Shown here: positions 2,301 through 26,561 of the stretch, piece by piece
Layout of the letters: every line of letters starts with the position of its first letter
How positions within the stretch are numbered: position 1 is the first letter of the stretch
NCBI GenBank assembly: GCA_023252215.1
Contig: JAHEXG010000005.1
Coordinates: 1 to 48,189, forward strand
DNA length: 48,189 nt
Source: Candidatus Altarchaeales archaeon
Lineage (GTDB): Archaea > Altiarchaeota > Altiarchaeia > IMC4 > QMZM01
Direction of reading: 5' to 3'
Made by a program: the position numbers and the translations under genes
Notes under the pieces: model-generated
Databases searched by the model: none
Told to the model about the DNA's origin: nothing
Seen by the model: only the letters and a program-made list of their open reading frames with translations

Positions 2301-2302
2301 GC

Positions 2303-2325
2303 ATTCTTTTTTGATTTTTTTTCTA
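2303..2325 (+). terminator. T-rich transcription terminator
   Basis: Two runs of T (about six and eight bases) follow the stop of the Cys-rich gene and precede the promoter of the next gene. Archaeal RNA polymerase terminates at such U-rich runs. Confidence 0.5.
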
Positions 2326-2356
2326 CTAATCTTGTTTAGCCTTGGCTATTAACAAG

Positions 2357-2366
2357 TTTTTATATC
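2357..2366 (+). promoter_or_regulatory. TATA-like box for the Cys-rich gene at 2393
   Basis: An AT-rich element (tttttatatc) is centred about 31 bases before the ATG at 2393. This spacing places the likely transcript start a few bases before the start codon and supports that ATG over an upstream in-frame ATT/ATG-like extension. Confidence 0.4.
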
Positions 2367-2392
2367 TCCACGCAGAAATAGATAAATATACC

Positions 2393-3908: not shown

Positions 3909-6149
3909 TTATTCGGCGTTGTCTTTTCTGTCTTTGGGTTTCAGCAGTTTGACCGGCTTGGGAGATCTTGGGGGAGTTGTCAGGGGCGGGGTCGTATTTA
4001 GTGCGGGGGGTGCGGGTTTTGTTTCTAGTTCCATATCGGGCTGCGTAATGGTCCGCATCATCGGGGGTCTGTAGTGTTCTGGTTCTTGGTCTTTGGCTTT
4101 GCCTCCTTCCTTGGAAGCTTCTTTTCCGCCTTCTTTCTTTTCGCCCGAGGTTTTCTTTTCGCCTGATGCTTTCTTTTTTGCAGGTACTTCTTTTTCTTCC
4201 TCTTCTACTCCGAACATGTTTCTATGTTTGAGTTTTTCTTTTTTCTCTTCTGTCTCTGCCGAATGAGTGAATCCGGTATCTTTTTCCTCGTCTATTCCTT
4301 CTTCCTGGAATATCTTCTCTTTTTCTTCTCCGGTCTTTATTATCATTTCCAGAGTGCTTTTGACTTCCTGTTTCTCGGTCTTGAATATGATCTCTCCTTC
4401 GTAGGTTTTCTTAGGTAAACTTGGGTCTGCTGCTATCTTTATTTTGACTGCTTTTTCTTCTCCGGGCTTTAATGCGAAGGTGCGTGTGCTGTATGTGATG
4501 TCAAAGCCTGAATCTGTCAGGTTTTCGTCGTATATGGTGACGCGGTAGAAAGGAGTCTTTCCGTCGTTTACGATTACTACGTTTAGTATCGTGCTTTCTC
4601 CAGGGGCTATCTCCAGTTCATAGTTGGTTGCGAATTTTGGGCGTAGTTTTATCTCGATAATGTTTTCTTTCTTTTGCGGCTCTTTAAAGGATGCGGGCCT
4701 GGATAACATGCCTACTCCGCGGCTTTCTGCTCCCTGGTTCTGCGCTGTGCCTGAGCCGGATGATCCCTGCGTGGATGCTGTGCCTGCTTCCCGGCCGCTT
4801 TCTGTAGGTTCCTGTGCTTCTCTTCCGGGCACTACTTCGTCTGAGTATCCGTAGGCTGTGTCCTGTTTCTGTTGGTTTGTGTTTTCATAGCCGTAGGAGG
4901 GCAATACCTTGTTTTCTTCGTCGTATCCGTACATTGACGAATACTTGGGTTTTCTGTATTTCAGAGGAGATGTTTCCTGCGTTCCTGCCGCGGCTTCTTC
5001 CTGTGCTGTCCCGGTTGTTTTGTATCCGCCGAAGCCGAGGGTGGATCCTTCGGCTTCTTTCTTTTCCGCGTCCTTTTCTTCGACTGACGCGTAGCCTTTC
5101 ATCCCCACCGCCGATCTGGTGGTCTTGGCTTTTTTCTTGCCTTCCGCGGGCTTCTCTGATGCTGCGGCTGTTTGTGCTTCTGCCGTGATGGGCGCGGTCA
5201 GTTTTATGAATTGGAGCGTGTAGGAAACGAATACCCCTATCCAGTCCATTATGCCGTAGATTATCAGGGGCGATGCGATTAGTATCAGGGTTCCGGTGAG
5301 GTTTATGATGCTGGATAATTCAGGTACTACGCCTGTTAGATTCTGGCTGCTGACGACTATGGTTACCAGCACGAGGGCGTATGCTGCGGGTAGGAATGCC
5401 CAGAATATGAGTTGTCTTAGTAGTGTGTTTCCTACGGTCTTGGTGGGCGGGAAGAATGTTAGGAATATTGCGGTTGGGAAGAATATTATCAGGAAGATCA
5501 GGAAGAAATATCTTGCGGCAAGCATTATGAATATGCCTGCGGTCGCAAGAAATGAGAGCAGGAGGAACGGGATTCCGAGTATTATGTTGGTCCACATGAA
5601 GTCTATTGCTCTGTAGTTTAGGTAGTCGACCGCTTTTCTGTATGTGAATCCCACGTCGAGTGGTCCTTGTCCCAGGATGTTTCTTGTAAGGGTGTTTGAG
5701 GTGTCGAAGAGTAGCTGTATCAGGTAGGTTGATACTGATATGACTACCATGCCCATTATGAGGCTTATGAGTGTTGCTTTGGCTCTCATCCTGCCCTGGG
5801 GCGTTCCGGAGAAGAACAGGAGGTATATTCCTGTTAGCAGGATGGCCATAACGTATAGCGGTTCCAGGATGCTTATGAAGTAGCGGGAGATGCTTGCGAT
5901 CTGCGGGCTTCCCGGGTTCGGGTCGTTTAGGAGAAAGTATGGGAGGTTGTCGTATATTTCGTATTTTATGTTGCTTATCTTGGTCCATAACATCCCCATG
6001 TAGACCAGTCTACCGGAGAGTTCTGATAGGAATTTACCCACTGCGTCGGCTGTGGAGCTGAGGAAGTACTCGTATTTTGTCGGGACCGCGCAGACGGAAG
6101 AGCAGATGAGCATTATTGCCGTCAGCAGAACGATGCTTGTGCGCTTCAT
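3909..6149 (-). CDS. VirB2/VirB6-like polytopic membrane protein with long Ig-like tail
   Basis: A 746-residue protein, last of five tandem paralogs. It has a signal peptide (MKRTSIVLLTAIMLICSS), a paralog-wide lead-in (LNDPNPGS), then YFISILEPLY and a two-helix module with the loop FSGTPQGRMRAKA. This module resembles VirB2/TrbC pilin-type domains. About four more helices follow, including ARYFFLIFLIIFFPTAIFL and the motif TKTVGNTLLRQ, giving a VirB6/TrbL-like shape. Unlike its four paralogs it carries a tail of about 400 residues: low-complexity Gly/Ser/Glu/Lys sequence, a beta-rich Ig-like domain at roughly residues 496-606 (EIAPGESTILNVVIVNDG), then a Lys/Glu-rich and Pro-rich end. Its ATG overlaps the upstream stop by four bases (ATGA), so translation is coupled. 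Channel or scaffold role is inferred. Confidence 0.8.
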   Translation of the reverse strand: MKRTSIVLLTAIMLICSSVCAVPTKYEYFLSSTADAVGKFLSELSGRLVYMGMLWTKISNIKYEIYDNLPYFLLNDPNPGSPQIASISRYFISILEPLYVMAILLTGIYLLFFSGTPQGRMRAKATLISLIMGMVVISVSTYLIQLLFDTSNTLTRNILGQGPLDVGFTYRKAVDYLNYRAIDFMWTNIILGIPFLLLSFLATAGIFIMLAARYFFLIFLIIFFPTAIFLTFFPPTKTVGNTLLRQLIFWAFLPAAYALVLVTIVVSSQNLTGVVPELSSIINLTGTLILIASPLIIYGIMDWIGVFVSYTLQFIKLTAPITAEAQTAAASEKPAEGKKKAKTTRSAVGMKGYASVEEKDAEKKEAEGSTLGFGGYKTTGTAQEEAAAGTQETSPLKYRKPKYSSMYGYDEENKVLPSYGYENTNQQKQDTAYGYSDEVVPGREAQEPTESGREAGTASTQGSSGSGTAQNQGAESRGVGMLSRPASFKEPQKKENIIEIKLRPKFATNYELEIAPGESTILNVVIVNDGKTPFYRVTIYDENLTDSGFDITYSTRTFALKPGEEKAVKIKIAADPSLPKKTYEGEIIFKTEKQEVKSTLEMIIKTGEEKEKIFQEEGIDEEKDTGFTHSAETEEKKEKLKHRNMFGVEEEEKEVPAKKKASGEKKTSGEKKEGGKEASKEGGKAKDQEPEHYRPPMMRTITQPDMELETKPAPPALNTTPPLTTPPRSPKPVKLLKPKDRKDNAE

Positions 6150-7366
6150 TTATACGCCTCCGCGTTGAGGCGCTCGTATTCGGTCTCTTCCATGTCTTCC
6201 TCGCGTATTTCTGTTTTCTCCAGGTATGCTTCGGTCATGGATATGGGCCGTATCAGTACGTAGGACATTAGGCCCAGGGCAGAGATCCAGTTCACTATCC
6301 ATAGGCCTATTAGCGGTGCCGCTATCAGGAGTAGGAATCCTGCGAGGGCGATGAATGTTCTCACGTCGTTCATGGTCTGCGGCAGCACTTCCGGTATGTA
6401 TTGGACGCTGGAATATGCCGTCCAAGTGGCCAGTAGTATCATGCCGTCTATTACCTGGACGTATATCCATAGAAACATCTGTCTCAGCAGGGAGGCGCCT
6501 ATTTTTTTTGTGGCTATGAACGAGTAGAGGAATACCGTGAATGGGAAGAACATGGCAAGCAATAGGACCATGTAGTATCTTACTGCTAAGACCAGTAGGA
6601 CGCCGGCCGGCAATAGTACCATTGCCGCAAGGAATGGGAGCGCCGAGGCGGTGTCGAAGAATGCCATCCGAAGGAAGTATCTGGCGAAGAACTCTTTTAC
6701 TGTCATGAACATGTCGGTGCTTATGGGCGAGGAGATCGCCGGCATGTTTGGGATGGCCATTATAATTGAGGTAAAATAGTGGGATGATTCCAGCAGCAGT
6801 TCGATCAGCGGGAGGGCGAGTGTGATTATCCCCAGGCCTAGTACCATTTTTATGAGGGTTCCTTTGGCTTTGGCTCTTCCTTTTGGCGAGCCTGACAGGA
6901 ACAGGAGGTATACTCCGGTGGTTAGTATGGCGATTGCGTAGAATGGCTGTAGTATGCCTATGAATAGATTGAGCGGGGCGAGTATTTGCGGGGACCGGAT
7001 CAATGGGGGGGTTTTTGTGTGGGAGTTGCCCTGGAAGAGGTCTTTTTGGTACATGAATGGTATGAGGGATTCGCTGAATGTCTTCATGATTGTGTCTACT
7101 TCGTTTGAGGCGTAGAAGTAGAAGTCTATCCTCCTGGATATCTCCATGAATAGTTTTGAGTCGTCTACTGCAACGTCGCCTAATACTTTTTTCAGGTGTG
7201 CGGCGATGTCCGGCTCCAGTGGCTGGGCTGCTATGTATTCTGCTATCCTGTCGTCTTTTGTGGTTTCCTGTCCCGTTACTTTTAGGATCGGGAGCAGGGC
7301 GATTGCTATCAGGATTATTACTGCGGCTTTCTGCCATGCGTTTTTTTTGTTTTTTTCCGGTTTCAT
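6146..7366 (-). CDS. VirB2/VirB6-like polytopic membrane protein (paralog 4)
   Basis: A 406-residue membrane protein. The start at 7366 (MKPEKNKKNAWQKAA) is chosen because a signal-anchor-type hydrophobic stretch follows directly and the preceding gene stops five bases upstream; the longer open frame is a shadow of that gene. After an extracytoplasmic region of about 100 residues comes LFIGILQPFYAIAIL and the signature FLSGSPKGRAKAKG, a two-helix pilin-like module. The second half has VRYYMVLLLAMFFPFTVFLY and TKKIGASLLRQMFLW, conserved in all five paralogs, and ends in a cytosolic-looking acidic tail (EKTEIREEDMEETEYERL). It lies in the operon between paralogs 3 and 5. Role in a membrane channel or pilus platform is inferred from the T4SS-like domain order. 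Confidence 0.8.
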   Translation of the reverse strand: MKPEKNKKNAWQKAAVIILIAIALLPILKVTGQETTKDDRIAEYIAAQPLEPDIAAHLKKVLGDVAVDDSKLFMEISRRIDFYFYASNEVDTIMKTFSESLIPFMYQKDLFQGNSHTKTPPLIRSPQILAPLNLFIGILQPFYAIAILTTGVYLLFLSGSPKGRAKAKGTLIKMVLGLGIITLALPLIELLLESSHYFTSIIMAIPNMPAISSPISTDMFMTVKEFFARYFLRMAFFDTASALPFLAAMVLLPAGVLLVLAVRYYMVLLLAMFFPFTVFLYSFIATKKIGASLLRQMFLWIYVQVIDGMILLATWTAYSSVQYIPEVLPQTMNDVRTFIALAGFLLLIAAPLIGLWIVNWISALGLMSYVLIRPISMTEAYLEKTEIREEDMEETEYERLNAEAYK

Positions 7367-7371
7367 AGTCC

Positions 7372-8328
7372 CTATATGAATCCTCTGAAGGTTTTCACGA
7401 AGAACAGCGGCGTGATTATCAACATGATGAGGCCTGCTATCTCCATTATGAATTTTAGGTATTCTGTTACTGTAAAGCTGGTTATTGAGTCTGTGAGTTG
7501 GACGCCGATAGCTACCGTTATCAGGACTATTGCCATTGCTACCTGGGTGAGGGTCCATAGTATGGTCTGTTCTGTCAGTAGTCTTCCTATGCCTCTTGTG
7601 GGCAGGAAGGCGTAGAGGGTTATGGTGAACGGGAGTATCATTGCAAGCACTGTCACCATGTAGAATCTGAGTTTTAGCAGTATGAGGATTCCTTCGAATA
7701 GGGAGTATGTTGCAAATAGTATGGGGATGCCGCCTGTTTCGTCTCCCATGGAGTAGTCGATTCCTCTGTGGGTCATTATGTATGTTCCTTTTTGCATCAG
7801 GTATTCTGCTGCGTCGGTGAATGGTTTTTCGGTGTCGACGGGTGCCAGCGACAATACCAGGAGCGTGAGAGACTTTGATATGCTGAAGAACAGCATGAGT
7901 ATGTGCGGTGACGCGGTTATCAGGCCTATTGCGAATATGGATAGCACAAGAGAGCTTTTGGCTTTGGCTCTTCCTGAGGGCGAGCCGGAAAAGAACATTA
8001 GATAGATGCCTATGACTAGTATAATAGTTATATATAGCGGCTGTAGCATGGAGATGAAATAGTTTATGATCCTTTCCGCATCCTGCTGGTAAAGCGTCGG
8101 GTTGTCCAGTATGAGCCCGTTTATGTTCTTTATGGAATCTATGGCTTCCGCTACCAGTCGTCCATAGTTCTCGGTCGCTTTCTCCCTGAAGAATGCCTCC
8201 ATGGATTCCTCGTCGAGCGGATGGATGATTGCGGACGCGGTATAAGACAGGACGAATACTGTTATGACCGCCGCCATAGTCAGCGTCTGCATCGTTCTTC
8301 CGGCCGTTTTTGCCCTTTTTCCTTTCAT
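7372..8328 (-). CDS. VirB2/VirB6-like polytopic membrane protein (paralog 3)
   Basis: A 318-residue membrane protein. The start at 8328 (MKGKRAKTAGRTMQTL) overlaps the upstream stop as ATGA and leads straight into a signal peptide (TMAAVITVFVLSYTASA). The pattern is that of its paralogs: LDNPTLYQQ, YFISMLQPLYITIIL, FFSGSPSGRAKAKS, a second helix, then LRFYMVTVLAMILPFTITLY and TRGIGRLLTEQTILW, and a last hydrophobic pair. It ends a few residues after the last helix, without the tails of the next two genes. The domain order of a VirB2-like pilin hairpin followed by a VirB6/TrbL-like bundle is my inference; homology among the five paralogs is directly visible. Confidence 0.8.
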   Translation of the reverse strand: MKGKRAKTAGRTMQTLTMAAVITVFVLSYTASAIIHPLDEESMEAFFREKATENYGRLVAEAIDSIKNINGLILDNPTLYQQDAERIINYFISMLQPLYITIILVIGIYLMFFSGSPSGRAKAKSSLVLSIFAIGLITASPHILMLFFSISKSLTLLVLSLAPVDTEKPFTDAAEYLMQKGTYIMTHRGIDYSMGDETGGIPILFATYSLFEGILILLKLRFYMVTVLAMILPFTITLYAFLPTRGIGRLLTEQTILWTLTQVAMAIVLITVAIGVQLTDSITSFTVTEYLKFIMEIAGLIMLIITPLFFVKTFRGFI

Positions 8329-9251: not shown

Positions 9252-9278
9252 GCTTTCTGTTTTATTGTTAATTTTATC

Positions 9279-10229: not shown

Positions 10230-10248
10230 ATGATAAGTCCCCGCAGGC

Positions 10249-11577
10249 TTACCTCCTGCGTATGAAGCGCATGTAGACAAAGAATAATGCCGCGACCAGT
10301 ATCAATAACAGCAAATATTTGCTGTCATCTCCTTTGACGCAGTCCGGGTCTTCTCCGGCGGAGCAGTCCGGGTCGCATCTTCCGTCTTTGACTTTGTCGC
10401 ATACTCCGTCCTGCGATCCTGATGGGCAGTCGCCGGGGCAGTTGTAGTAGTTCTCGATGCCTATATCGCAGAAGCCGTCATGGTTGCATGTGCAGTCCGG
10501 GTCTTCTCCCTGTTTGCAGTCCGGGTCGCATCGTCCGTCTTTGACTTTGTCGCATACTCCGTCCGGGGATCCTGATGGGCAGTCTTCGGGGCAGTTGTAG
10601 TAGTTTTCTCCGGTATAGCATACTTTGTCGTGGTTGCATATTGGTTTTATCGTCAGGGTTATTTTGTCGGATACTACAAAGCCTGCGGCATCCGATACTT
10701 TGAGGGTTATCGTGTTGGAGTCGTTTGCGTCGTTTGACAGGTTGTCGTAGTAGAATTCTTTTTCCCTTCCTATCACGCCGTTTGCGTCGGATTCCCAGCT
10801 ATACGTGTAGGGTTCTTTTCCCCCTTCTGCCAGGGCTGCGAAATTCAGCCTGCTTCCTTCTTTGACTGTCTGTTTGTTTTTGGGGGATTTTATCGATGCC
10901 TGTAACGGGAGTATTTCTATGTCTGCGGGGCTGATTACCCAAAGGGTCTTATCGCTGGTTATGTAGGTGTTTGCCGCGTCTTTTACTTCGAGATGCACTG
11001 TATGTGTTCCTAGCGCAACTTTCATTTCCAGGTATTTAACGCTGCCTATGACTTTGTCGTCCAGGCGCCATGAATACGTATAAGGGGGAACTCCGCCGCT
11101 TACTGACGCGTTGAAGGGTATGTTATCGGTTTCGCTGTAAAATGTTTCCGTCCCCGGCAGGAGTATTCTTGCCTGAAGGGATGCTGGCTTTATGGTTATG
11201 TTCTTATGGGCCGTCATTATTGTGCCCATGCCGTCTGAGAACCTGAACTCTATTATGTGCTGGCCCGCCGACAGATTGTTTCGGGAGATTGAGACCCCGG
11301 TTCCAATTGTTCCGTCCAGGCTGGAAGACCAGGTGTAAGAGCAGGCGGCTCCGCAGGTGTCCTGTCCGGTGTAGATGCCTGCGAAGGTTATGGACTCGCC
11401 CTGGGTAAATTCCGTTTGCCCTGCTCCCGGCATCAGGATCTCTGCACGCGGCGTATGGTCTATTACCACTGGCGTAGTGGTTTTGTTTGTGCATCCCGCG
11501 CATCCTGCGTAGCCTGGGGAGATGACTAAAAGCGCAAATATCAGCATCCCTATAATATCCGCTGTTTTGTTTTTCAT
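10249..11577 (-). CDS. Membrane-anchored Ig-like/Cys-repeat surface protein
   Basis: A 442-residue protein with a signal peptide (MKNKTADIIGMLIFALLV), three PKD/Ig-like repeats (each with a pattern like P-Y-T-Y-S-W and a hydrophobic VSD or VKD strand), then two Cys-rich repeats of about 51 residues. Each repeat reads C-N-H-D..C...E-N-Y-Y-N-C-P-x-D-C-P and then DGVCDKVKDGRCDPDC. It ends in one transmembrane helix (YLLLLILVAALFFVYM) and a short basic tail. It is thus a type I surface protein. The start overlaps the stop of the giant gene upstream by ATGA. The protein at 22422 has the same C-terminal repeat and anchor, so each divergent operon has one such protein. Adhesion or scaffold role is inferred. 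Confidence 0.85.
   Translation of the reverse strand: MKNKTADIIGMLIFALLVISPGYAGCAGCTNKTTTPVVIDHTPRAEILMPGAGQTEFTQGESITFAGIYTGQDTCGAACSYTWSSSLDGTIGTGVSISRNNLSAGQHIIEFRFSDGMGTIMTAHKNITIKPASLQARILLPGTETFYSETDNIPFNASVSGGVPPYTYSWRLDDKVIGSVKYLEMKVALGTHTVHLEVKDAANTYITSDKTLWVISPADIEILPLQASIKSPKNKQTVKEGSRLNFAALAEGGKEPYTYSWESDANGVIGREKEFYYDNLSNDANDSNTITLKVSDAAGFVVSDKITLTIKPICNHDKVCYTGENYYNCPEDCPSGSPDGVCDKVKDGRCDPDCKQGEDPDCTCNHDGFCDIGIENYYNCPGDCPSGSQDGVCDKVKDGRCDPDCSAGEDPDCVKGDDSKYLLLLILVAALFFVYMRFIRRR
10339..10605 (-). repeat. Two direct repeats of about 114 bases inside the Cys-repeat gene
   Basis: Segments 10339-10452 and 10492-10605 are near-identical, 153 bases (51 codons) apart, and encode the two CDKVKDGRCDPDC repeats. 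The high base identity indicates a recent duplication or gene conversion. Confidence 0.75.
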
Positions 11578-17264: not shown

Positions 17265-17351
17265 TTTATCCGACTGTATATTTCTATTTATTATAGTTTA
17301 ATAAATACTTTATCATCTATAAAGATAACAAAAAAATAGCAGCTACCCAGA
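17265..17351. promoter_or_regulatory. Divergent promoter region between the two envelope operons
   Basis: Eighty-seven AT-rich bases separate the starts of the giant minus-strand gene and the plus-strand protease operon. TATA-like elements are visible for both directions: around 17285-17297 read on the minus strand (ctataataaatag) and around 17298-17325 on the plus strand (taataaatac and ctataaag). Shared control of the two operons is likely; no repeated operator is obvious. Confidence 0.55.
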
Positions 17352-19265
17352 ATGGAAAAAACAAACGCAAAATCGCATTGCCTTTTTCTTGCAATCCTGC
17401 TCGTCCTATCCCTGTCCACAATCGTTTTCTCTCAGGACGCGTCCATTAAAAACACCCAGAGCCTGGTCCGCAACCTTATATGCCTTCTACTATGGGTCAT
17501 GCCCTTCATCATACTGCTATTCTTTACCGCCGGAAGCTATCTGATACTCTCCGGAAGCGCAGCCAGCAGAAACACAGGCAAGAAGATGATCAGAAATGCA
17601 TCCGTATCCTTAGTGATAATGGTTAGCCTGATGCTGTTTGTATACCTGGCTCTCCCCGGGGTGGATGTGATGGTATGTTTCGGCGCTCTGCCCGGACTAG
17701 AGAATCAGCCCCCGGTAGCCGAGGCCAGGGTAAGCTATAACCCAAGCCCTTCCGAGAAAAGCGTGGAGATAACAGTAGGCGATACGGCCTATTTCGACGC
17801 CAACCTGTCAAAGGACCCCGACGGGATCGTCGTGGAATACCTATGGGACTACGGCGACGGAAATTACTCAGAAGGCTTCTACACAGACCATGTCTACACT
17901 GCTCCTGGAGAATACTATGTGCAATTGCGGGTAAGAGACGACAGAGGAGTAATAAGCCTTCGTCCAAGCATAGTAAGAGTGATAGTAAATCCTCCTCTCC
18001 GGGTGAGTTCAGAAATACAGAGGCCGGTGTATGAGACAATTGTCACAACGACCCTGGCTCCGTATGTTACAACAACTAATGGCGAGGGAACCACATCGAC
18101 CACCTCGGCAGATTCGAGCACGTCCACCTCCTCAGGAGACACATCTTCCACGCAATCAAGTACTACAACCACTTCAACCACTACTACGACCACAACCACG
18201 ACTACCACGCTACCCGTCAACGTGCTGATAGCTGCCTTAAAGGCCAATATGAAAAAGGTGTACTCAGACGCAGAGATAACAACCCTTGAGGGCAAGATAA
18301 AAGAATACCAGACCTCGCTGAAAAACGACGGCCTGAATTCGCTGTTCCTGTACCTCGACGAGGACGCAACATCCAACATAACCGGGAGCAAAGTCACAAG
18401 TCCGGCAGACTGGAACAACGTCGACGGCATACTGGACCAGGTGACTACGAAGTTACCGATACAATATGTCCTGATAGTGGGAGGCTACGACCGATTCCCG
18501 GCAGGGAAAGTAGGCGCCTACAAGACAGACAACTACTATGCAGATAATAACAAGGATGCAGGGACTCTACCAGACGTGGCCCTTGGAAGACTGCCGGACC
18601 CCAACGGAGGAGACATGTCTCTGCTTATCACGGAATTCGACACCTACACAAAACTGCATAACTCCGGAGGATTAGCTCTGCCGCTACACGTGGGGCGGTC
18701 TCTGGGAACCGGCTATCGCACCATGTGTTTTTGGGATATGATATTCGGAAAAACATGCGCATCGGATGCGAACTGCAAAGAATCAACGACAGATTCTCCA
18801 AGCGCGGTCAGCGGCAAGGACTTCTTCTACCTCGTGCAGCACGGCAGCGCAGGACCCCCGCAGCAGTATGCGAACGCTCTTTTGCCAAGCAACCTGGCCT
18901 CTATGGACGTTTCCAATGCAGTATGGATGATGGTTCCCTGCTACGGCGGCGTGATAGACTATGCGTCGACAGCCAGCAGCATAGTTCTGAGCTACCTGAA
19001 AAAAGGAGGCGCAGTCCACATGTCAAGCACCGAGCAAAACTGCTGCTCCACGACCGGCGGCACCTGCACCAATAACATAGATAGCGGAGTAGGACTACTC
19101 TACTATAAAATAGCAAAAAAATACTCTGTTGGAACAAGGATAGGGGACGCATACAAACAAGGAAAAACCGAATTCAAAAACGAATTAGGTAACGGACCGG
19201 CCCAGGAATACTACATAAACTGCCTATACGGGGACCCGACCTTGAAGATAACTACAATGTGGTGA
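17352..19265 (+). CDS. Pilin-like module fused to PKD domain and C25 gingipain-like peptidase
   Basis: A 637-residue protein. Signal peptide (LAILLVLSLSTIVFS), then two helices flanking the loop ILSGSAASRNTGKKM at about residues 40-100, which resembles the VirB2-type hairpin of other proteins in the cluster. A PKD domain follows (ANLSKDPDGIVVEYLWDYGDG), then a long Thr/Ser linker. The C-terminal half matches the C25 caspase-like family: VLIVGGYDRFP, DVALGRLP, VQHGSAGPP with probable catalytic His497, VPCYGGVID with probable catalytic Cys530, and the family-typical end LYGDPTLKI. Both dyad residues are in place, so it is probably an active cysteine endopeptidase held outside the membrane. It is the first gene of the plus-strand operon; substrate unknown. 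Confidence 0.85.
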   Translation: MEKTNAKSHCLFLAILLVLSLSTIVFSQDASIKNTQSLVRNLICLLLWVMPFIILLFFTAGSYLILSGSAASRNTGKKMIRNASVSLVIMVSLMLFVYLALPGVDVMVCFGALPGLENQPPVAEARVSYNPSPSEKSVEITVGDTAYFDANLSKDPDGIVVEYLWDYGDGNYSEGFYTDHVYTAPGEYYVQLRVRDDRGVISLRPSIVRVIVNPPLRVSSEIQRPVYETIVTTTLAPYVTTTNGEGTTSTTSADSSTSTSSGDTSSTQSSTTTTSTTTTTTTTTTTLPVNVLIAALKANMKKVYSDAEITTLEGKIKEYQTSLKNDGLNSLFLYLDEDATSNITGSKVTSPADWNNVDGILDQVTTKLPIQYVLIVGGYDRFPAGKVGAYKTDNYYADNNKDAGTLPDVALGRLPDPNGGDMSLLITEFDTYTKLHNSGGLALPLHVGRSLGTGYRTMCFWDMIFGKTCASDANCKESTTDSPSAVSGKDFFYLVQHGSAGPPQQYANALLPSNLASMDVSNAVWMMVPCYGGVIDYASTASSIVLSYLKKGGAVHMSSTEQNCCSTTGGTCTNNIDSGVGLLYYKIAKKYSVGTRIGDAYKQGKTEFKNELGNGPAQEYYINCLYGDPTLKITTMW

Positions 19266-19272
19266 GCAAAAA

Positions 19273-20196
19273 ATGAAAGAAACATCATACATAATAAAAA
19301 ACAGGAAAGGACTCTCAAAAACAGCATACATCATCTTAGCGATCATCGTATTAGCCGCCGCAGCTATTGTTTTCTTTGTCGGCAATTCCGAATCATGCGG
19401 GAACGGAATCTGCCACGCCGAAAAAGGAGAGACTTGCAAAAGCTGCCCCCAGGACTGCGGACCCTGCCAGAAGGTCCCAGTATGCGGCGACGGATTATGC
19501 ACCGGAGCAGAGAACAACGACAACTGCCCCGCCGACTGCAAGCCGTCCACGCTATGCGGCGATGGCGTATGCGACCCCTCCGAGAACTGCCAGGACTGCT
19601 TCAAGGACTGCGCCTGCGGCAGCGGACAGTATTGCTCTCCTGCATTGAAGGCCTGCGCCCAGCGCCCCTGCGGAGACGGAAAATGCGACAGCGGCATCGG
19701 CGAGGACTGCAACACGTGTCCTGCGGATTGCAAAGAATGCAAGCCAACGCCTAAATGCGCGGATGGCGTATGCGACCCCTCCGAGAACTGCCTGGACTGT
19801 CCGCAGGACTGCAAGTGCGCCGCAGGCGAATACTGCTCGGCCGAAGAAAAGAGTTGTGTTAAGCCCGTGTGCGGGAACCAGAAATGCGAGATATACGAGA
19901 ACAGCGACAATTGCTGCATTGACTGCCCATGCGAGATATCCTATACAAAATGCAATCAGGAGACCAGGGCCTGCGAGAATCCCTCCACTGTCCTGGGCGA
20001 CGAGGAGATAAAGAAGATCGTTGCCGAGTATTACAGTAATAAATCGGCGCAGGTTGAGGATATAACCCTCAAAGAGGTGTTTGTATGGGATGGCAAAACC
20101 GGAAGAAAGACAGAGGTAAAGCTTGCGGGCCAGGACGAGTTGAAATTCCTACTGGTCACTGATGCAAAGGAGGTAATCGAGCTGCCTTTTTTCTGA
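19273..20196 (+). CDS. N-terminally anchored Cys-repeat protein
   Basis: A 307-residue protein with a basic N-terminus and one hydrophobic segment (AYIILAIIVLAAAAIVFF) that lacks a clear cleavage site, so probably an N-terminal membrane anchor. Six Cys repeats of the form CGDGVCDPSENCQDC.KDC follow, similar to those in the proteins at 10249, 22422 and 25758. The C-terminal 75 residues are Cys-free and beta-rich (YSNKSAQVEDITLKEVFVWD), ending in VIELPFF. The gene starts eight bases after the protease stop, so they are co-transcribed. Repeats of this kind are common in archaeal surface proteins but have no settled function; disulphide-rich spacer or binding module is inferred. Confidence 0.8.
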   Translation: MKETSYIIKNRKGLSKTAYIILAIIVLAAAAIVFFVGNSESCGNGICHAEKGETCKSCPQDCGPCQKVPVCGDGLCTGAENNDNCPADCKPSTLCGDGVCDPSENCQDCFKDCACGSGQYCSPALKACAQRPCGDGKCDSGIGEDCNTCPADCKECKPTPKCADGVCDPSENCLDCPQDCKCAAGEYCSAEEKSCVKPVCGNQKCEIYENSDNCCIDCPCEISYTKCNQETRACENPSTVLGDEEIKKIVAEYYSNKSAQVEDITLKEVFVWDGKTGRKTEVKLAGQDELKFLLVTDAKEVIELPFF

Positions 20197-20210
20197 GCGG
20201 CAGACACTAG

Positions 20211-20230
20211 TATAGTATATTATGTTATTT
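20211..20230 (+). promoter_or_regulatory. Possible internal promoter before the transglutaminase-like gene
   Basis: An AT-rich stretch with a TATA-like element (tatagtatat) lies about 35 bases before the ATG at 20255, in the longest gap inside the plus-strand operon. It may give separate expression of the downstream genes. Confidence 0.3.
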
Positions 20231-20254
20231 AATGATATGTTAAACGGATCGGAA

Positions 20255-22417
20255 ATGAAAAACATAGTTTCAACCCTGCTCGCACTGGCCGTGCTCTGCT
20301 TTGCGACAGCCGCAGTTTCCGCGGACACTTTCGCCGCAAATTCCACTAAGGGCATCATATACTCCCCCCAGAATTATGTGGTGAGAGACAGCGGATTCAA
20401 CGCCACATTCAAAGCCCGTGCAATGTTTGGCACCCCCTGCTTTGCCCCGCCCTACTACAGATATGGATGGTACCTGAATGGCACTCTTATAGGCTCCTTT
20501 GAAGAGTTCTCAAGGAGCCTTGAGGATTTTCCGACCGGCAACTACACGCTCACAGTAAACGTCACAGACTGCATGAACCGGACAGCTTCAGAAACTAAGG
20601 AACTCTACCTGGTGGATACGCTGAAAGTAAAGATAAACAGCATACAGGCGGGAGGAACAACTATCTATAGCATGAACTGCACAAATCCGGCATGTAACAC
20701 CAGCGCCTGCAACCCCCAAGGCAATAGAGACGCCGCAGACGATTACGCAGGCGGAAAAGAGTATTTCTACAACAGAACGGCAACGCCGGCAAGCAGCTTG
20801 CTGTATCTCACATATGACGGAAGCCTCATGTATGAAATAACACAGCCCAACATAACAGTTCTTTTCCCGGACAAATGCAACGTAAACGGATGCAGCCCCA
20901 AAAGCTTCTACACAGTGGCCTATGAGCAAAGCACCGGCGAATATTATTTTCTCATAGGCGAAGACAGTTTCATGGGCGGCATGTCAAATGTCCCGGGAAA
21001 CTGGTGCAAAAATATATGTAATGCATTCCTGGACGATTTCATCCCAATCACCTCCCAGATACTGATATGCGGAGCAGACACAATAAGCCCGCCCACAAGG
21101 CTAATCGGCACGATCAACGGCTATACCGAGATAATCGCAACCAACAGCATAAACGGCCGAAAAGTGCATTACATATTCTCAGACAACATGCAGACCTTCT
21201 TTGCCGCCAAGGGCTGGACCTATAACGGCCTGGGAGTCGACTCAGGAACTTCGAGACTAACCATCAATACCCTATGCTCTGTCAATCGACCAATGGAGCA
21301 TACCGCAGACAAATGCCTCCTGAACTTCAGCGCAACGGTTACGGGAGGGCTCCCGCCATATAACGTAAAATGGGTATCCAGCAGAGACGGAGTAATAAAC
21401 CGCTTCACTCTGGCAAGCGATCCATCCATATATGAATACATGAGCACTCCGCCGATGAGTCCACCCCTCTCCGACGGCGAACACAACCTATCTTTCTATG
21501 CCCAAGACCTACTGGGACTGTCAGCCAGCGCTACCTGGCCGCAGGCCGTAATACCCTGGTGCTGCGCCATCATGACTCCATGCCACAAATATTGGCCGGG
21601 AAGAGACGGACCAATTGTAAATACGGGCAATGAAGAGAGCAATTCATGCGACATATACGAAGTCTGCAGGCCCGAACTATGGCAGAGAGCAAGAGAAGGC
21701 ATATATTGCTGCGAAAACAACTGCACTGGAGGCTGCCTCAAAGAATGCAGGACCGCATACAATTTCAGCAAAGACATGGTGCAGTCAAACGGCATGCTCA
21801 CACCCGAAGGCGTCAAGAAATGCGCAGGCCTATACCTGATCTACGGATTCGGCCCGGGAAGAAAATACATGACAGACTACTACTTCCCGGAGATATGCTG
21901 TTTAGGCGACACATCCACCTGCTCCACCACTGGACTGGATGCAAATTGCTGCCCCGGCGATATCGGGACATGCAGCTGCAGCTACCACACTTATTCGGTG
22001 AACGCCAACTCCCTACAATGCACAGGCTATGTTTCCACCAGCGCAGAAGGCTGGAAGAGCGACATCGCAATGAACCTCAACACTTGCCTGTTCTCAGACC
22101 TCCCGGCATACGCAAGCATGGAAGTCATAAACACCGGAACATGCTGCGACTACACAAACTCGCTTACAACAATGCTGCGAATAGTAGGATACGGACCGGA
22201 CGAAGTCTACGCAGCCAGCGGCCCAGGCCACTGCTACACCCTGGTCAAATTCCCAAACTCGCCCAAATACAACATAGTCGAAGTGACCGGGAATTGGGAA
22301 ACACCCTACACCCCCTACGGCATATCCGGATACCCGGGCTACCCATATTGCAGCTACTATAACTGCCGCAACGATGCAGGCACATTTACCTGCCCCACGA
22401 ACGTATGGGGCTGCTAA
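20255..22417 (+). CDS. Secreted Cys-rich protein with transglutaminase-like core
   Basis: A 720-residue protein. The start at 20255 begins a proper signal peptide (MKNIVSTLLALAVLCFA); an upstream in-frame ATG at 20222 would place 11 extra residues before it. Two Ig-like regions follow (GNYTLTVNVTDCMNRTA; FSATVTGGLPPYNVKW), then a Cys-rich region. The C-terminal part looks like a transglutaminase core: TCCDYTNSLTTMLRIVGYG with a candidate nucleophile Cys630 or Cys631, GHCYTLVKF with His659, and IVEVTGNWE with Glu676 in the place of the usual Asp. The spacing fits the family. No C-terminal anchor is seen. It could be a protein cross-linker or a peptidase; the fold call is an inference from motif order only. 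Confidence 0.7.
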   Translation: MKNIVSTLLALAVLCFATAAVSADTFAANSTKGIIYSPQNYVVRDSGFNATFKARAMFGTPCFAPPYYRYGWYLNGTLIGSFEEFSRSLEDFPTGNYTLTVNVTDCMNRTASETKELYLVDTLKVKINSIQAGGTTIYSMNCTNPACNTSACNPQGNRDAADDYAGGKEYFYNRTATPASSLLYLTYDGSLMYEITQPNITVLFPDKCNVNGCSPKSFYTVAYEQSTGEYYFLIGEDSFMGGMSNVPGNWCKNICNAFLDDFIPITSQILICGADTISPPTRLIGTINGYTEIIATNSINGRKVHYIFSDNMQTFFAAKGWTYNGLGVDSGTSRLTINTLCSVNRPMEHTADKCLLNFSATVTGGLPPYNVKWVSSRDGVINRFTLASDPSIYEYMSTPPMSPPLSDGEHNLSFYAQDLLGLSASATWPQAVIPWCCAIMTPCHKYWPGRDGPIVNTGNEESNSCDIYEVCRPELWQRAREGIYCCENNCTGGCLKECRTAYNFSKDMVQSNGMLTPEGVKKCAGLYLIYGFGPGRKYMTDYYFPEICCLGDTSTCSTTGLDANCCPGDIGTCSCSYHTYSVNANSLQCTGYVSTSAEGWKSDIAMNLNTCLFSDLPAYASMEVINTGTCCDYTNSLTTMLRIVGYGPDEVYAASGPGHCYTLVKFPNSPKYNIVEVTGNWETPYTPYGISGYPGYPYCSYYNCRNDAGTFTCPTNVWGC

Positions 22418-22421
22418 AAAA

Positions 22422-23339
22422 ATGAAAAAGAAAATCTGGTCCATCACATTGATCCTATGCCTTGCGGCGGCAGCCTACGCGGCAAACAACACCTGCCCCG
22501 CATGCGGCGGAAATACGATAACAAATCCGGCAGGCACAATAACAGCGGAAAAAACAGCGCCGGAAAAGATAACAAAAGGAGAGACTCTGCGAGTTGTCAT
22601 AACGATAACCAACACATATCCTGTAAGTATGTCCGTCAGCCTGAAAGAATATTTCGGAGGCGCAAACGAAATAAACATGTCAGGCTTCAAGAGAAGCTCC
22701 CCGCCCGGCTCATCAGTGCCTCCATACTACAGAAAAACCGTAGACCTGCCGAAAAACTCCCAGACAATCGTATCCTACGAGATAGAACCGCTATACTACG
22801 GCCCATTCATGATACCTGAAACCAAGTTGTCAACCTCTAATGAAACGTTTTCATCCAACCCCCTGACAGTGTCTGTTGAATGCAACCAAAACAAGATATG
22901 CGAACCAAGCCTGGACGAAAACGCATTCACCTGCCCCCAGGACTGCCCGCCCGACAAACCGGACAGCCTATGCAACCCGATAAGAGACAAAATATGCGAC
23001 CCCGACTGCCCGCCTGGCGCAGACCCGGACTGCGTTACAACTACGACCACCACCCAAACCAGAGCGACCTCCACCACCCTCAAATACTACTGCGGCGACA
23101 ACCTCTGCCACTATCCGGAAGAGAATTACGGAAACTGCCCATCCGACTGCCCATCAGGATCGTCTGACGGCTACTGCGACAAAGTCAAAGACCGACGATG
23201 CGACCCCGACTGCACCGCGAAAGAAGACCCGGACTGTGCAGGCCCGGACAACACCGGCCTGATCATAGTCTTTTTATTCGTATTGGCTTTGGCGCTCATA
23301 ATCGCTTACAAAAAACGATGGCTGAAAAAAGGAGAATGA
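22422..23339 (+). CDS. Membrane-anchored Ig-like/Cys-repeat surface protein
   Basis: A 305-residue protein starting four bases after the upstream stop. Signal peptide (WSITLILCLAAAAYA), a CARDB-like beta domain (GETLRVVITITNTYPVSMSV), then two Cys repeats separated by a Thr linker; the second reads CPSGSSDGYCDKVKDRRC and is nearly that of the protein at 10249. A single helix (LIIVFLFVLALALIIAY) and a basic tail anchor it. An upstream open extension overlaps the preceding gene and is rejected. The matching protein in the divergent operon suggests the two operons each supply one copy of this anchor (inference). Confidence 0.8.
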   Translation: MKKKIWSITLILCLAAAAYAANNTCPACGGNTITNPAGTITAEKTAPEKITKGETLRVVITITNTYPVSMSVSLKEYFGGANEINMSGFKRSSPPGSSVPPYYRKTVDLPKNSQTIVSYEIEPLYYGPFMIPETKLSTSNETFSSNPLTVSVECNQNKICEPSLDENAFTCPQDCPPDKPDSLCNPIRDKICDPDCPPGADPDCVTTTTTTQTRATSTTLKYYCGDNLCHYPEENYGNCPSDCPSGSSDGYCDKVKDRRCDPDCTAKEDPDCAGPDNTGLIIVFLFVLALALIIAYKKRWLKKGE

Positions 23340-24133
23340 GGCTTATCGCAGGCGCTCTATTCCTGGTCTGCATGATATGTCTCTCCTACGGGGACGACTG
23401 CAAGGACGAATGTACTGCGCCATGCGACGCCCTGAAATGCAACATGCTGTCCTCAACTCTTGGAGGCTGCTGGTTTGACGGCGCAAGCTGCTGGAGCTGC
23501 ACCGGAAGCAACAAAGTGACAACCTGCGAACAGTACGGTAAAGGCTCATGCGAGGCGAACACCTGCGGCCTCCCCGGCAGATGCAAGTGGACCATGTCCG
23601 CCTGCATAAGCACAGCCGTCCAGTCAAACTGCAAGACAAGCGGATGCTCCATCTCATACAAGTGCATGGCCGACGGGGAATGCGCGCACTATTCGATCTC
23701 CACGCAGGACTACTGCCGGAACGTCTACACGGAACACGGTTTCGCATACGACATCGCAGATGCGGCGTCCTGCGACAAGATAGGCGAGATATGCAAGAAA
23801 ACGGACGAAAAATGCCAGGAACTATCAAACGACGCATCAACGAGCCTACAGAGACAGAGCGAATGCACGCTCCTCAAACAGATGTGCCTCCAGTGCCAGG
23901 GAGACTGCGAACTACGCAGGAGCGCAAACAGCATAGAGAACATAATATACGGCACCGCAGCAGGCCTGGCAGTCCTGCTGCTGGTAATAAACGCGATCCA
24001 GATGATGACCGCAGAGGACGCACTGGCAAGGAGCAACGCCAAAAAGGGAATGGCCTACGTAGTTCTATCCCTTCTGATAATATTAATAGCGATAAAATTC
24101 ATAGAATACGTGTGGATATCCTTCAGCACATAA
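23336..24133 (+). CDS. Stand-alone VirB2/TrbC-type pilin-like Cys-rich protein
   Basis: A 265-residue protein. The start at 23336 makes the ATGA overlap seen elsewhere in the cluster; an in-frame ATG at 23318 is possible. After a signal peptide (LIAGALFLVCMICLS) comes a Cys-rich ectodomain of about 160 residues with some 26 Cys. The last 75 residues form a two-helix hairpin: IIYGTAAGLAVLLLVINAIQ, loop MTAEDALARSNAKKG, and AYVVLSLLIILIAIKFIEYV. This matches the pattern of T4SS pilin families of Gram-positive and archaeal systems (hydrophobic helix, [MY]-x-[TS]-x-x-[ED]...A-K-K-G, hydrophobic helix). It may polymerise or be the membrane base of a pilus; this is inferred. Confidence 0.75.
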   Translation: MRLIAGALFLVCMICLSYGDDCKDECTAPCDALKCNMLSSTLGGCWFDGASCWSCTGSNKVTTCEQYGKGSCEANTCGLPGRCKWTMSACISTAVQSNCKTSGCSISYKCMADGECAHYSISTQDYCRNVYTEHGFAYDIADAASCDKIGEICKKTDEKCQELSNDASTSLQRQSECTLLKQMCLQCQGDCELRRSANSIENIIYGTAAGLAVLLLVINAIQMMTAEDALARSNAKKGMAYVVLSLLIILIAIKFIEYVWISFST

Positions 24134-24148
24134 CGCATTAAAAAAACA

Positions 24149-25729
24149 ATGAAAAAAGCGATAAATGCAATATTAATATTATCCTTTACGATAGCATTAT
24201 CCCTGCAATCCAGCGCATTCGACCCACTTCCGGCAGGATGCAAAGCCCACTGCTCGAACATAACCGACTGCCAAACATGCATGAGCGACTGCGAAGGATA
24301 CATCGGAAGCTACACAGACATAAGAACGGTCCTTGACGCCATACTAAGACGGGAAAAAGTCAGCGCCTCAACGTATGACCCGGACGCCGTAAAAAACCTG
24401 GAAAAATGCTGGTGCTCCGCCTGCTGCGAATACAAATACGGCGGAGACGCAAACCATCCCTGCATATACCCCTGCCCCTGCTCCATCAGGAATGAAACCG
24501 GCAACGCAACCACGACCACGACATTAGACAAAAAACAAAGGCCAGACCTTGCAACATCCCTGAACGAGATAACAGGTTCCGTTAACTACAGCCTATGCTA
24601 CGCCCTAAACATCCTATGGATAGTTATACCCGGGATAACGGCGCTCATAATAATGTGGGCCGGCTCAAGATACCTAACCTCAGAAGAAGACCCCATCAAG
24701 AGGATAAACGCGCGAAACATCGTAGTATACGCATTAGGCGGGCTCATATTTTCTGTTGCGGCCTGCCCGGCATTAGACTACCTGATCCTTAATACAAACA
24801 TCACCCCCTTCCAGTCGTCCTGCAAATGCTACGAGCTGATGAGTTTAAAGGCCGGAGTTACGCCAACTATGCCTTACATAGCAAATATAACCACCTCGTC
24901 TTTTGTCCAGACGACCCATGGTATTCCCACGACTATGACGACCCTAGTAAGAAACACCACGACCACTACGAAATCCACCACCACCTCGACCACTACGACC
25001 ACGCTGGGCTGCCTGGGGCCCTGCGAACAATACAAGGCGACCCACGTGCTCCCGGCAGCCTTCGACTGGCGGAACGTGAACGGCAAAAACTATATGACGG
25101 GGGTAAGAGACCAGGGGAGTTGCGGCTCATGCTGGGCGCATGCGACGCTGGGATCAATGGAGGGCACGTATAATGTTGAACAGTGCAAGCCTGCTGAGAA
25201 TAATATCGCCGAGCAGGAACTGGTCTCATGCGCCGGCAGCTACCCCAACAATCGCGGCTGCAACGGAGGCTTATATACTTCCGCTTTTATGTATATCAAA
25301 GACCAAAAGATAGTCGAAGAATCGTGTTTCCCATACAAGGCCGCCAACGTTGCATGTTCGCGCTGCGCAAGTCCGAAACTCTGGTCGATAACAAGCTGGA
25401 CCAACGTTGGCAACAACATGAACAGCGTGAAGGCATATCTGATATGTCATGGACCTATTGCTATCGCATGTACCAACTGGGCCAACACCGGTTTCGGACA
25501 CGCGATCACACTTACGGGCTACGATGACAACAGCCAGATATGCCAGAGCCACTACGGCAAAGCAGGATGTTGGATAATGAAAAACAGTTGGGGAGTGTTC
25601 ACCGGCACATCCGGAGGTATATACCATCAAGGAGGATACGGGTATATCCCCTACACAGGCTCAGTTGTAAGTGACATTGTGGGGGGATACTATTCGCCTG
25701 CTGCGCCGTCCGGAATAAAAGCGCCATGA
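24149..25729 (+). CDS. Pilin-like module fused to papain-family (C1) cysteine protease
   Basis: A 526-residue protein. Signal peptide (INAILILSFTIALSLQ), a Cys-rich N-terminal part, a short Thr linker, then a two-helix pilin-like hairpin (ALNILWIVIPGITALIIMWA, loop RYLTSEEDPIKRINARN, second helix VVYALGGLIFSVA). A Thr-rich linker leads to a complete C1A papain domain: FDWRNVNG, RDQGSCGSCWAHA with oxyanion Gln322 and nucleophile Cys328, GHAITLTGYDD with His451, and MKNSWG with Asn479. All catalytic residues are present. No long inhibitory propeptide is seen. The gene follows the pilin-like gene by 15 bases. The domain order is that of the C25 fusion at 17352, with another peptidase in the same place. 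Confidence 0.9.
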   Translation: MKKAINAILILSFTIALSLQSSAFDPLPAGCKAHCSNITDCQTCMSDCEGYIGSYTDIRTVLDAILRREKVSASTYDPDAVKNLEKCWCSACCEYKYGGDANHPCIYPCPCSIRNETGNATTTTTLDKKQRPDLATSLNEITGSVNYSLCYALNILWIVIPGITALIIMWAGSRYLTSEEDPIKRINARNIVVYALGGLIFSVAACPALDYLILNTNITPFQSSCKCYELMSLKAGVTPTMPYIANITTSSFVQTTHGIPTTMTTLVRNTTTTTKSTTTSTTTTTLGCLGPCEQYKATHVLPAAFDWRNVNGKNYMTGVRDQGSCGSCWAHATLGSMEGTYNVEQCKPAENNIAEQELVSCAGSYPNNRGCNGGLYTSAFMYIKDQKIVEESCFPYKAANVACSRCASPKLWSITSWTNVGNNMNSVKAYLICHGPIAIACTNWANTGFGHAITLTGYDDNSQICQSHYGKAGCWIMKNSWGVFTGTSGGIYHQGGYGYIPYTGSVVSDIVGGYYSPAAPSGIKAP

Positions 25730-25757
25730 TCGATTTATAACGAACATAACATACAAA

Positions 25758-26561
25758 ATGAAAAACAAAAACAGTTTTTTTATCTGGATAATTATTGCTT
25801 TGGTCGCATCATCGGCCTATGCGATTAAGAACCCTGCAGCGGTCTATTGTCAGGCCCTCGGATACTCCTATGAAACGAAGACGAATGATAACGGAGACGA
25901 AGTAGGCATATGCGATTTCCCTGGGAACACGGGAAATACTGACTGCGACTCCTGGAACTATATGAACGGCAAATGCGGCACGGATTACAGCTACTGCGCA
26001 AAAATGGGATACCGGCAGAAAAAAGCAGCAGGAGCGGAATGCGGATCAGAAGACCTTTTGGCAGAATGCCTTCTATGCATCCTGCCAAACGGAACAACGG
26101 CAGAGGTAACAAGCCTGATGAACCTCAACTTACAAGAAGGAAAATGCGGCGACGGAGCATGCGTCCTCGGCGAAACATATGAGAACTGCCCCCAGGACTG
26201 CCCGGCAACGCCCACCACAATAGAAGAAGTTTCCACCATCCCGACAGAAGAAACCACGACCCGGCCGCCAGAGTCAACCACTGTCCCAGAAACTACGACA
26301 ACAACCGAATCCCCAATGACCACAGTTCCTCAAAACCTATGCGGGAACGGCAAATGCGACGCAACCGAAAACGCGGACTCATGCTCCAAGGACTGCGCAA
26401 AACCCACGGGATTATCAGACTACCTGCCCTATATAGTGATAATAGCAGTTCTCCTTTCGATCCTCTACGTATCCAAAAAGAAGCTGGACGAAAAGAAGAT
26501 AGCGAAAGAAAAAGAGGAATTCGAGAAATGGAAACAGGAAAAAGGAGGAACAACCATCTGA
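25758..26561 (+). CDS. DUF333/Cys-repeat membrane-anchored protein
   Basis: A 267-residue protein with a signal peptide (FFIWIIIALVASSAYA). The N-terminal domain (NPAAVYCQALGYSYET...GICDFPG...CDSWNYMNGKC) fits DUF333, a small Cys-containing domain often near proteases or protease inhibitors in bacteria. A second Cys region, a CGDGAC...ENCPQDC repeat, a Thr/Glu/Pro linker, another CGNGKC repeat, one helix (YIVIIAVLLSILYV) and a charged Lys/Glu tail, probably helical, follow. A TATA-like element (gatttataac) lies 20-25 bases before the ATG. Its stop is one base away from the convergent RFC gene. Last gene of the envelope cluster; role unknown. Confidence 0.8.
   Translation: MKNKNSFFIWIIIALVASSAYAIKNPAAVYCQALGYSYETKTNDNGDEVGICDFPGNTGNTDCDSWNYMNGKCGTDYSYCAKMGYRQKKAAGAECGSEDLLAECLLCILPNGTTAEVTSLMNLNLQEGKCGDGACVLGETYENCPQDCPATPTTIEEVSTIPTEETTTRPPESTTVPETTTTTESPMTTVPQNLCGNGKCDATENADSCSKDCAKPTGLSDYLPYIVIIAVLLSILYVSKKKLDEKKIAKEKEEFEKWKQEKGGTTI

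Follow-up and report, generated by a model that had tools for sequence, protein, structure and literature searches.

Which apparatus is built by five adjacent, related polytopic membrane proteins, and why should there be five of them? The question is raised by a stretch of 48,189 nucleotides (the window), contig C75 of an archaeal metagenome-assembled genome (labelled G000; 90 contigs, 1.55 Mb, 93% complete) that belongs to the Altiarchaeales within Altiarchaeota. Altiarchaeota are uncultivated archaea and their contacts with other cells are little understood. ORF listing and translation revealed 14 genes in two divergent runs at 3909-26561 (Table 1), with ATGA overlaps at 6146-6149, 8325-8328, 11574-11577, and 23336-23339. 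Downstream lie housekeeping genes, including those for an RFC-type clamp loader subunit, a GTPase, and adenylosuccinate synthetase; therefore, the locus is chromosomal and not an evident mobile element.

An initial annotation, made from sequence alone, had described fourteen genes around a divergent promoter, ATGA overlaps, five polytopic paralogs with a VirB2-like hairpin, a stand-alone pilin-like protein, two pilin-like modules fused to peptidases, and a giant adhesin-like protein. The gene layout held after correction of starts, including those of the five paralogs, while the promoter remains putative. All four overlaps are real. The hairpin was recovered in four of the five paralogs, in one above cut-off, and the stand-alone pilin-like protein and both peptidase fusions (PF00112 and PF01364) were confirmed, the fused hairpins scoring below cut-off. 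The giant adhesin-like protein held only in part, as its VWA and beta-propeller matches are mostly below cut-off and the term adhesin is inferred from domains.

Table 1. Features of the locus, in window positions
Feature	Position	Strand	Evidence and remarks
VirB6-like P5, 746 aa	3909-6149	-	ATGA overlap with P4; AlphaFold model; core matches R388 VirB6
VirB6-like P4, 406 aa	6146-7366	-	T4SS_pilin 2.6e-5, just below cut-off; tree
VirB6-like P3, 318 aa	7372-8328	-	ATGA overlap with P2; model of pLDDT 91.5; R388 TrwI/VirB6 fold; T4SS_pilin 4.6e-6
VirB6-like P2, 308 aa	8325-9251	-	Family alignment; positional ortholog group P2
VirB6-like P1, 316 aa	9279-10229	-	T4SS_pilin hairpin E 0.0017, below cut-off; family A1/A2 alignment; ortholog of P1 in G001 and G007 arrays
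PKD/Ig-repeat Cys-rich membrane-anchored protein	10249-11577	-	PKD_4 8.9e-7, Ig_3 8e-9; ATGA overlap with giant gene
Giant surface protein, 1896 aa	11574-17264	-	Heads the VirB6 operon; regions of VWA-like, beta-propeller, and Big-like type; anchored by a C-terminal TM segment
Region of putative promoters	17265-17351		87-bp AT-rich divergent intergenic gap, read from sequence; promoter role putative
VirB2-like hairpin + PKD + Peptidase C25 (gingipain-type) fusion	17352-19265	+	T4SS_pilin 6e-4, below cut-off; PKD 1e-17; PF01364 2.9e-7
Cys-rich exported protein	19273-20196	+	No family match
Exported protein	20222-22417	+	C-terminus transglutaminase-like by eye only; no Pfam support
BatD-like Cys-rich-repeat membrane-anchored protein	22422-23339	+	PF13584 0.001, below cut-off
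Cys-rich ectodomain + VirB2-like hairpin, pilin-like, without enzyme	23336-24133	+	PF18895 9.7e-7, above cut-off
VirB2-like hairpin + papain-family peptidase fusion	24149-25729	+	PF00112 3.4e-34; T4SS_pilin 0.0036 and NCBIfam pilin-like conjugal transfer protein 0.0012, both below cut-off
DUF333 membrane-anchored protein	25758-26561	+	PF03891 4e-13

The five paralogs and their motor

The paralogs P2-P5 are 22-31% identical to P1 and align with it over the whole membrane part, with 24 invariant columns. The T4SS_pilin profile PF18895 was reported for four of the five at residues ~88-150, the best score (4.6e-6) being above the curated cut-off and the rest below; an NCBIfam model for a pilin-like conjugal transfer protein scored weakly in two. 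Individual Pfam scores are weak or absent for P1, P2, and P5. The Pfam VirB6/TrbL model did not report the paralogs (hmmscan of Pfam-A, E ≤ 0.1); we regard this model as an annotation aid and not as a family property, and the family assignment is based on fold and on the context of the genes. A search of PDB sequences with the VirB6 profile also gave no match, so that fold comparison was needed.

An AlphaFold model of P3 (56 sequences, mean pLDDT 91.5) was compared with 350,542 PDB chains using Foldseek. The four best matches were all TrwI/VirB6 of R388 (probability 1.00), with modest TM-scores of 0.45-0.53 by target length and an E-value of 3.5e-3 at best. The helical membrane core of the P5 model matched R388 VirB6 as well (8rt9_F, E 6.4e-4); its C-terminal extension consists of a disordered linker, an Ig-like domain (residues about 496-605), and a charged tail. 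The fold of P3 and P5, the hairpin profile, and the surroundings of the genes identify the five polytopic paralogs as VirB6 proteins, and we consider their identity as VirB6 of a T4SS to be very likely. Beltran et al. (PMC9905601) report homology between the pilin CedA1 and the N-terminal part of CedA, the N-terminus of VirB6/CedA being VirB2-like; this explains the presence of a VirB2-like hairpin and a VirB6-like bundle in one protein.

The VirB4 motor was not found within the window. It is encoded on contig C84 of the same genome in a consecutive group of genes for a VirB2-type pilin of 139 aa (PF18895 3.3e-9, above cut-off), a PrgI/VirB3 protein of 292 aa carrying an extra domain (PrgI PF12666 8.5e-8, above cut-off), a VirB4 of 808 aa (TraG P-loop 3e-24; best PDB relative the VirB4-like 4ag5, 5e-37), and an Mrr-PAP2 fusion of 622 aa. 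Hence VirB4, VirB3 of PrgI type, and a VirB2-type pilin, the core T4SS parts, are all encoded in this genome. VirB4 matches the mad8 and HerA models of PADLOC; none of six scanned window proteins matched a PADLOC model. A coupling protein VirD4 was sought using PF02534, which gave a seemingly perfect co-occurrence signal. This signal was rejected: the hits span the P-loop region only, and the five that were read are soluble HerA-type helicases.

The initial annotation had related the locus to VirB2/VirB6, T4SS, and Ced systems, had noted the absence of VirB4/CedB from the window, and had named checks of structure, of the rest of the genome, and of gene order. The relation held, and all three checks were passed by the R388 VirB6 fold of the P3 and P5 cores, by VirB2, VirB3 (PrgI), and VirB4 on C84, and by the conservation of the arrays in related genomes, respectively. 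The absence held for the window, the VirB4 gene being unlinked and not absent. The hairpin and bundle needed correction, as one VirB6 protein carries both.

Sets of five VirB6-like genes

In 29 Altiarchaeota genomes, the VirB6 family was confined to a single order, in which 23 of 24 genomes have it; the remaining five genomes do not. VirB4 and VirB3 occurred together in the same 20 of the 23 genomes with the family and in none of the six without it, while the T4SS_pilin PF18895 occurred in 23/23 and 0/6, respectively. Fisher tests gave 1.8e-4 for VirB4/VirB3 with VirB6 and 2.1e-6 for the pilin with VirB6, without correction for shared ancestry. Array gene order is conserved in related genomes, and VirB4 and VirB6-like genes lie on one contig within several kb in six cases (G007:C9, G002:C38, G016:C92, G018:C3, G019:C43, and G020:C24, given as genome and contig).

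Outside the phylum, only five genomes match the family in a search of 394 archaeal genomes. They contain seven loci, each with one VirB6-like gene adjoining VirB3, plus VirB4 where the contig continues; VirB4 is fused to VirB3 in three of these loci, and in five of the seven a distinct pilin gene could be identified. A further single-copy VirB6 cassette with its own VirB4 was found in G016 (C94). From these single-VirB6 cassettes it follows that one VirB6 per machine is the state outside the sets of this lineage. The cassettes also bear on the objection that the paralogs are unrelated polytopic membrane proteins which resemble VirB by chance. The weak or missing Pfam scores of P1, P2, and P5 speak for it; the fold search, the cassettes in other archaea, and the co-occurrence with VirB4 contradict it, and we consider it all but excluded.

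What is new relative to earlier knowledge, and was not drawn out in the initial annotation, is that the VirB6-like genes come in fives. Exactly five were counted in 15 of 16 countable sets, dispersed ones included. Eleven contig-internal tandem arrays have exactly five members (G000, G001, G002, G004, G005, G006, two in G007, G009, G012, and G015), and another five are found on contig C30 of G007, the first gene being at the contig edge. In the one-contig genome G015, a second set is split 4+1, the lone gene lying about 530 kb away; the tree places it as ortholog of position 1 of the full array. Family f5 has dispersed genes, most of which are fused to long extensions. The set of G018 is arranged 2+2+1, as is that of G016 provided that two contig ends (139 bp overlap, 93%) are counted as one gene. 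The f5 protein tree resolves into roughly five groups of orthologs, in none of which a genome is represented twice; the placement of the first C92 gene of G016 is uncertain, as is whether the fifth group is a single one.

The sole countable exception is G010 with four genes; its congener G003 has three and then the contig ends. VirB4 and VirB3 were not found in either genome of this genus. Sets truncated at the end of a contig (G000:C16, G001:C17, and fragments in G008, G011, and G014) were left out of the count. There is no formal null model for the number five, and related genomes contribute sets that are not independent.

Were the sets inherited from one ancient set of five? In a tree of 79 proteins, the members of types A, B, and D sort by position without exception, needing only the minimum of four changes for five states. 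Type C stands as a clade of its own (100/99), and in it the position 1 and position 2 genes of G004 are sisters, as are, in a separate place, those of G009. A single ancient set common to all types was considered, but clades joining P1 (p 0.0097) or P5 (4e-30) across types were both rejected; holding each type as one clade was not rejected (p 0.12-0.22). These results, with the separate clade of type C, suggest that five was probably reached repeatedly. Several expansions, each stopping at five, are the simplest reading and a likely one. It is possible that gene conversion blurs the deep tree and inflates the apparent number of repeated origins.

A proposed heteropentameric base

VirB6 of R388 is a homopentamer at the base of a five-start (C5) pilus (PMC9259494), and for further systems VirB6/DotA pentamers have been described or predicted (PMC12857230). 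Because the paralogs number five and R388 VirB6 is homopentameric, we propose a heteropentameric base. In this proposal P1-P5 would build one VirB6 ring with each paralog in its own slot, and on this ring VirB4/VirB3 would assemble a pilus of VirB2-like hairpins. The ring is inferred from numbers and orthology, no complex having been modelled or observed, and we lean towards it by a small margin. That the family repeatedly settles on five adjacent, non-interchangeable members is consistent with one gene per slot, again as an inference.

The hairpins of polypilins, in which several are joined in one chain, were considered as proof of C5 symmetry. Five were counted in G000, G001, and G011, and five and ten in G005 and G012, but seven, four, and seven in G006, and these counts were not used.

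Alternatively, the five paralogs might be alternative subunits, each forming its own homopentamer of differing specificity, like an expanded receptor family. In support of this, G007 has one VirB4 for up to 15 VirB6 genes, so that bases may be exchanged, and the paralogs bear differing extensions. Against it, the constant number (five in 15 of the 16 sets) would be left unexplained, and the tandem ATGA-coupled genes suggest joint expression. We regard this alternative as unlikely and retain the heteropentameric ring.

The comparison with known systems shows both likeness and difference. The membrane-core fold is that of R388 TrwI/VirB6 (PMC9259494), and VirB2, VirB3, and VirB4 are also encoded in G000; however, R388 forms its homopentamer from a single VirB6, as opposed to five paralogs. 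The Ced and Ted systems (CedA/TedA, CedA1/TedC, and CedB/TedB; PMC9905601) are likewise archaeal VirB2-VirB4-VirB6 sets, and the N-terminus of their VirB6-like protein is pilin-like as in the Altiarchaeota paralogs; no coupling protein was found among the five PF02534 hits that were read in the Altiarchaeota. They have a single CedA/TedA and belong to another lineage, whereas the Altiarchaeota have sets of five, a gene for VirB3/PrgI, surface proteins of giant size, and enzymes fused to hairpins. The nearest precedent is the Rvh T4SS of Rickettsia, with five VirB6 proteins, RvhB6a-e, bearing large extensions (PMC2653234); an insertion disrupting the fifth RvhB6 paralog causes an infection defect (PMC10883807). 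Anaplasma has four VirB6 (PMC7648143). Both possess bacterial vir-type T4SS with VirB8-10 and VirD4; in the Altiarchaeota loci that were read, no VirB8/VirB9/VirB10 core complex was noticed. The MPF-FATA T4SS of Patescibacteria and monoderms (PMC12102498) also combines PrgI-type VirB3, VirB4, T4SS_pilin, and VirB6, in small-genome, host-associated organisms; its VirB6 homologs lie near virB4, and five-gene sets are not mentioned in the relevant passages of that paper. In the literature searched, with most subscription literature outside the search, neither the idea of a heteropentameric VirB6 nor a paper on VirB-type T4SS in Altiarchaeota was found.

The enzyme side and its possible targets

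Homologs of the giant protein head arrays in G000:C16, G001, G007, and others, and the PKD/Ig-repeat protein has a homolog at the equivalent place in the G007 and G001 arrays. The BatD-like protein of the plus strand resembles this PKD/Ig-repeat protein (phmmer 2e-32). In the C25 fusion, the peptidase score was obtained above cut-off on the isolated C-terminal domain. A family-specific profile located the hairpin at residues 39-99 of this fusion and at 149-212 of the papain fusion; several hairpin matches in fused enzymes are below the curated cut-off.

At the equivalent divergent position in G001, the hairpin and PKD are kept, followed at the end by a putative metallopeptidase in which the motif HExxHxxG is present (Reprolysin_5 3.7e-4, below cut-off). 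The divergent gene of G005 has as its last part a transglycosylase SLT domain (1.3e-14), which shows the ES and GLMQ motifs typical of SLT domains, and in G007 a transglutaminase core is found on a Cys-rich hairpin protein. A hairpin-hydrolase gene divergently adjoins the giant gene in G000, G001, and G005, with differing enzymes. Archaea have no murein; therefore, the SLT domain points to bacterial partners. In our proposal, hairpin proteins joined to a peptidase or another hydrolase would be anchored at or built into the apparatus, and together with the giant VWA/propeller protein they would act on the envelope of a partner cell. Entry of the fused proteins into the pilus is an inference.

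Two alternatives concern this part only. First, the operon at 17352-26561 could be a surface-protease island, independent of the VirB6 machine, in which the hairpin is a mere membrane anchor. Hairpins are indeed very common (25 matches in G000, those within VirB6 proteins among them), and many lie far from VirB6 genes. Nevertheless, none of the six Altiarchaeota genomes that lack VirB6 has PF18895, and the hairpin-hydrolase gene keeps its divergent place beside the giant gene in three genomes. The island remains possible.

Second, the machine could be a DNA importer like Ced/Ted, serving chromosomal DNA exchange among Altiarchaeota cells, with the enzymes unrelated to it; this rivals the function and not the five-part base. 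It is supported by the VirB2/VirB4/VirB6 set shared with Ced and Ted (PMC9905601) and by the absence of VirD4 among the five PF02534 hits read. On the other hand, VirB3/PrgI is present and is not among the described Ced/Ted components, and giant VWA/propeller proteins and hairpin-fused hydrolases at the same loci fall outside Ced/Ted as described. This too is possible; envelope attack on partner cells, the function that we infer, is given the higher probability of the two, and the evidence still falls a little short of making it the expected outcome. The earlier suggestion of an apparatus for host contact, DNA exchange, or surface proteolysis likewise remains inference.

On balance, we favour the reading that the VirB6 base, the giant surface protein, and the enzyme-bearing pilin-like proteins encoded in the window belong to a minimal T4SS-like machine whose motor and pilin are encoded on C84. 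A bolder reading is that the heteropentamer is obligate, that each slot has a gene of its own, and that this state arose more than once, with exchangeable hydrolase-tipped pilins aimed at partners. We offer it tentatively, doubt slightly outweighing belief; if true, it would also explain the five RvhB6 genes of Rickettsia.

Enzyme modules are exchanged on the pilin-like hairpins, which suggests a polymorphic weapon or a device for feeding; among them, in an archaeon, is a domain of peptidoglycan-cleaving type. A T4SS-type machine apparently new to description would also be placed in archaea whose cell contacts are little understood. Moreover, the stoichiometry of a membrane machine is seemingly written in the number of its genes, which offers a sequence-based test of VirB6 pentamers beyond the few systems with solved structures and might explain why VirB6 expanded in Rickettsia.

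Serial hairpins and enzyme fusions

Several T4SS_pilin (VirB2-like) hairpins follow one another in tandem within one chain at L053, L106, L104/L105, L108 and L103. By T4SS_pilin hairpin count, five hairpins per chain were found in the source genome (G000) and in two other Altiarchaeota genomes, G001 and G011; G005 and G012 gave counts of five and ten, while the counts in G006 depart from five (seven, four and seven). The N-terminus of the lytic transglycosylase fusion in G005 has a CHAP/NlpC-like appearance, judged by eye only. The Mrr-PAP2 fusion gene of the source genome immediately adjoins VirB4, and its homologs in G001 and G007 are likewise close to VirB4. Close to the end of the window lies the T2SSE ATPase gene, which does not adjoin the two-operon region (3909-26561).

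Features of the window and of related loci
Feature	Locus	Position	Remark
Cys-rich or Thr-rich protein, Big_1-like domain	window	246-2300	directly downstream of VirB6 array
Cys-rich or Thr-rich protein	window	2342-3715	directly downstream of VirB6 array
Type II/IV secretion ATPase	window	46087-47598	T2SSE match, 3e-32
Mrr endonuclease-like domain + PAP2 phosphatase membrane domain, one protein	L051 (G000:C84)	1299-3167	
Multi-hairpin protein	L053 (G000:C76)	1047-3233	five T4SS_pilin hairpins
Archaeal PKD + VirB2-like hairpin + SLT lytic transglycosylase domain	L057 (G005:C18)	14799-16775	
Separate single-copy VirB6 cassette	L137 (G016:C94)		VirB3/VirB4 divergent

Single-copy VirB6 cassettes

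VirB6-VirB3-VirB4 cassettes with one VirB6 each were found at seven loci (L128-L134) in five archaeal genomes outside Altiarchaeota, and a pilin gene is present in most of them. DNA methylase or restriction-like genes adjoin some of these cassettes. Three cassettes occur within a single genome, G247, where VirB3 and VirB4 are fused in a protein of ~1050 aa. Both arrangements, the single-copy cassette L137 and a five-member VirB6 set, are present in the Altiarchaeota genome G016.
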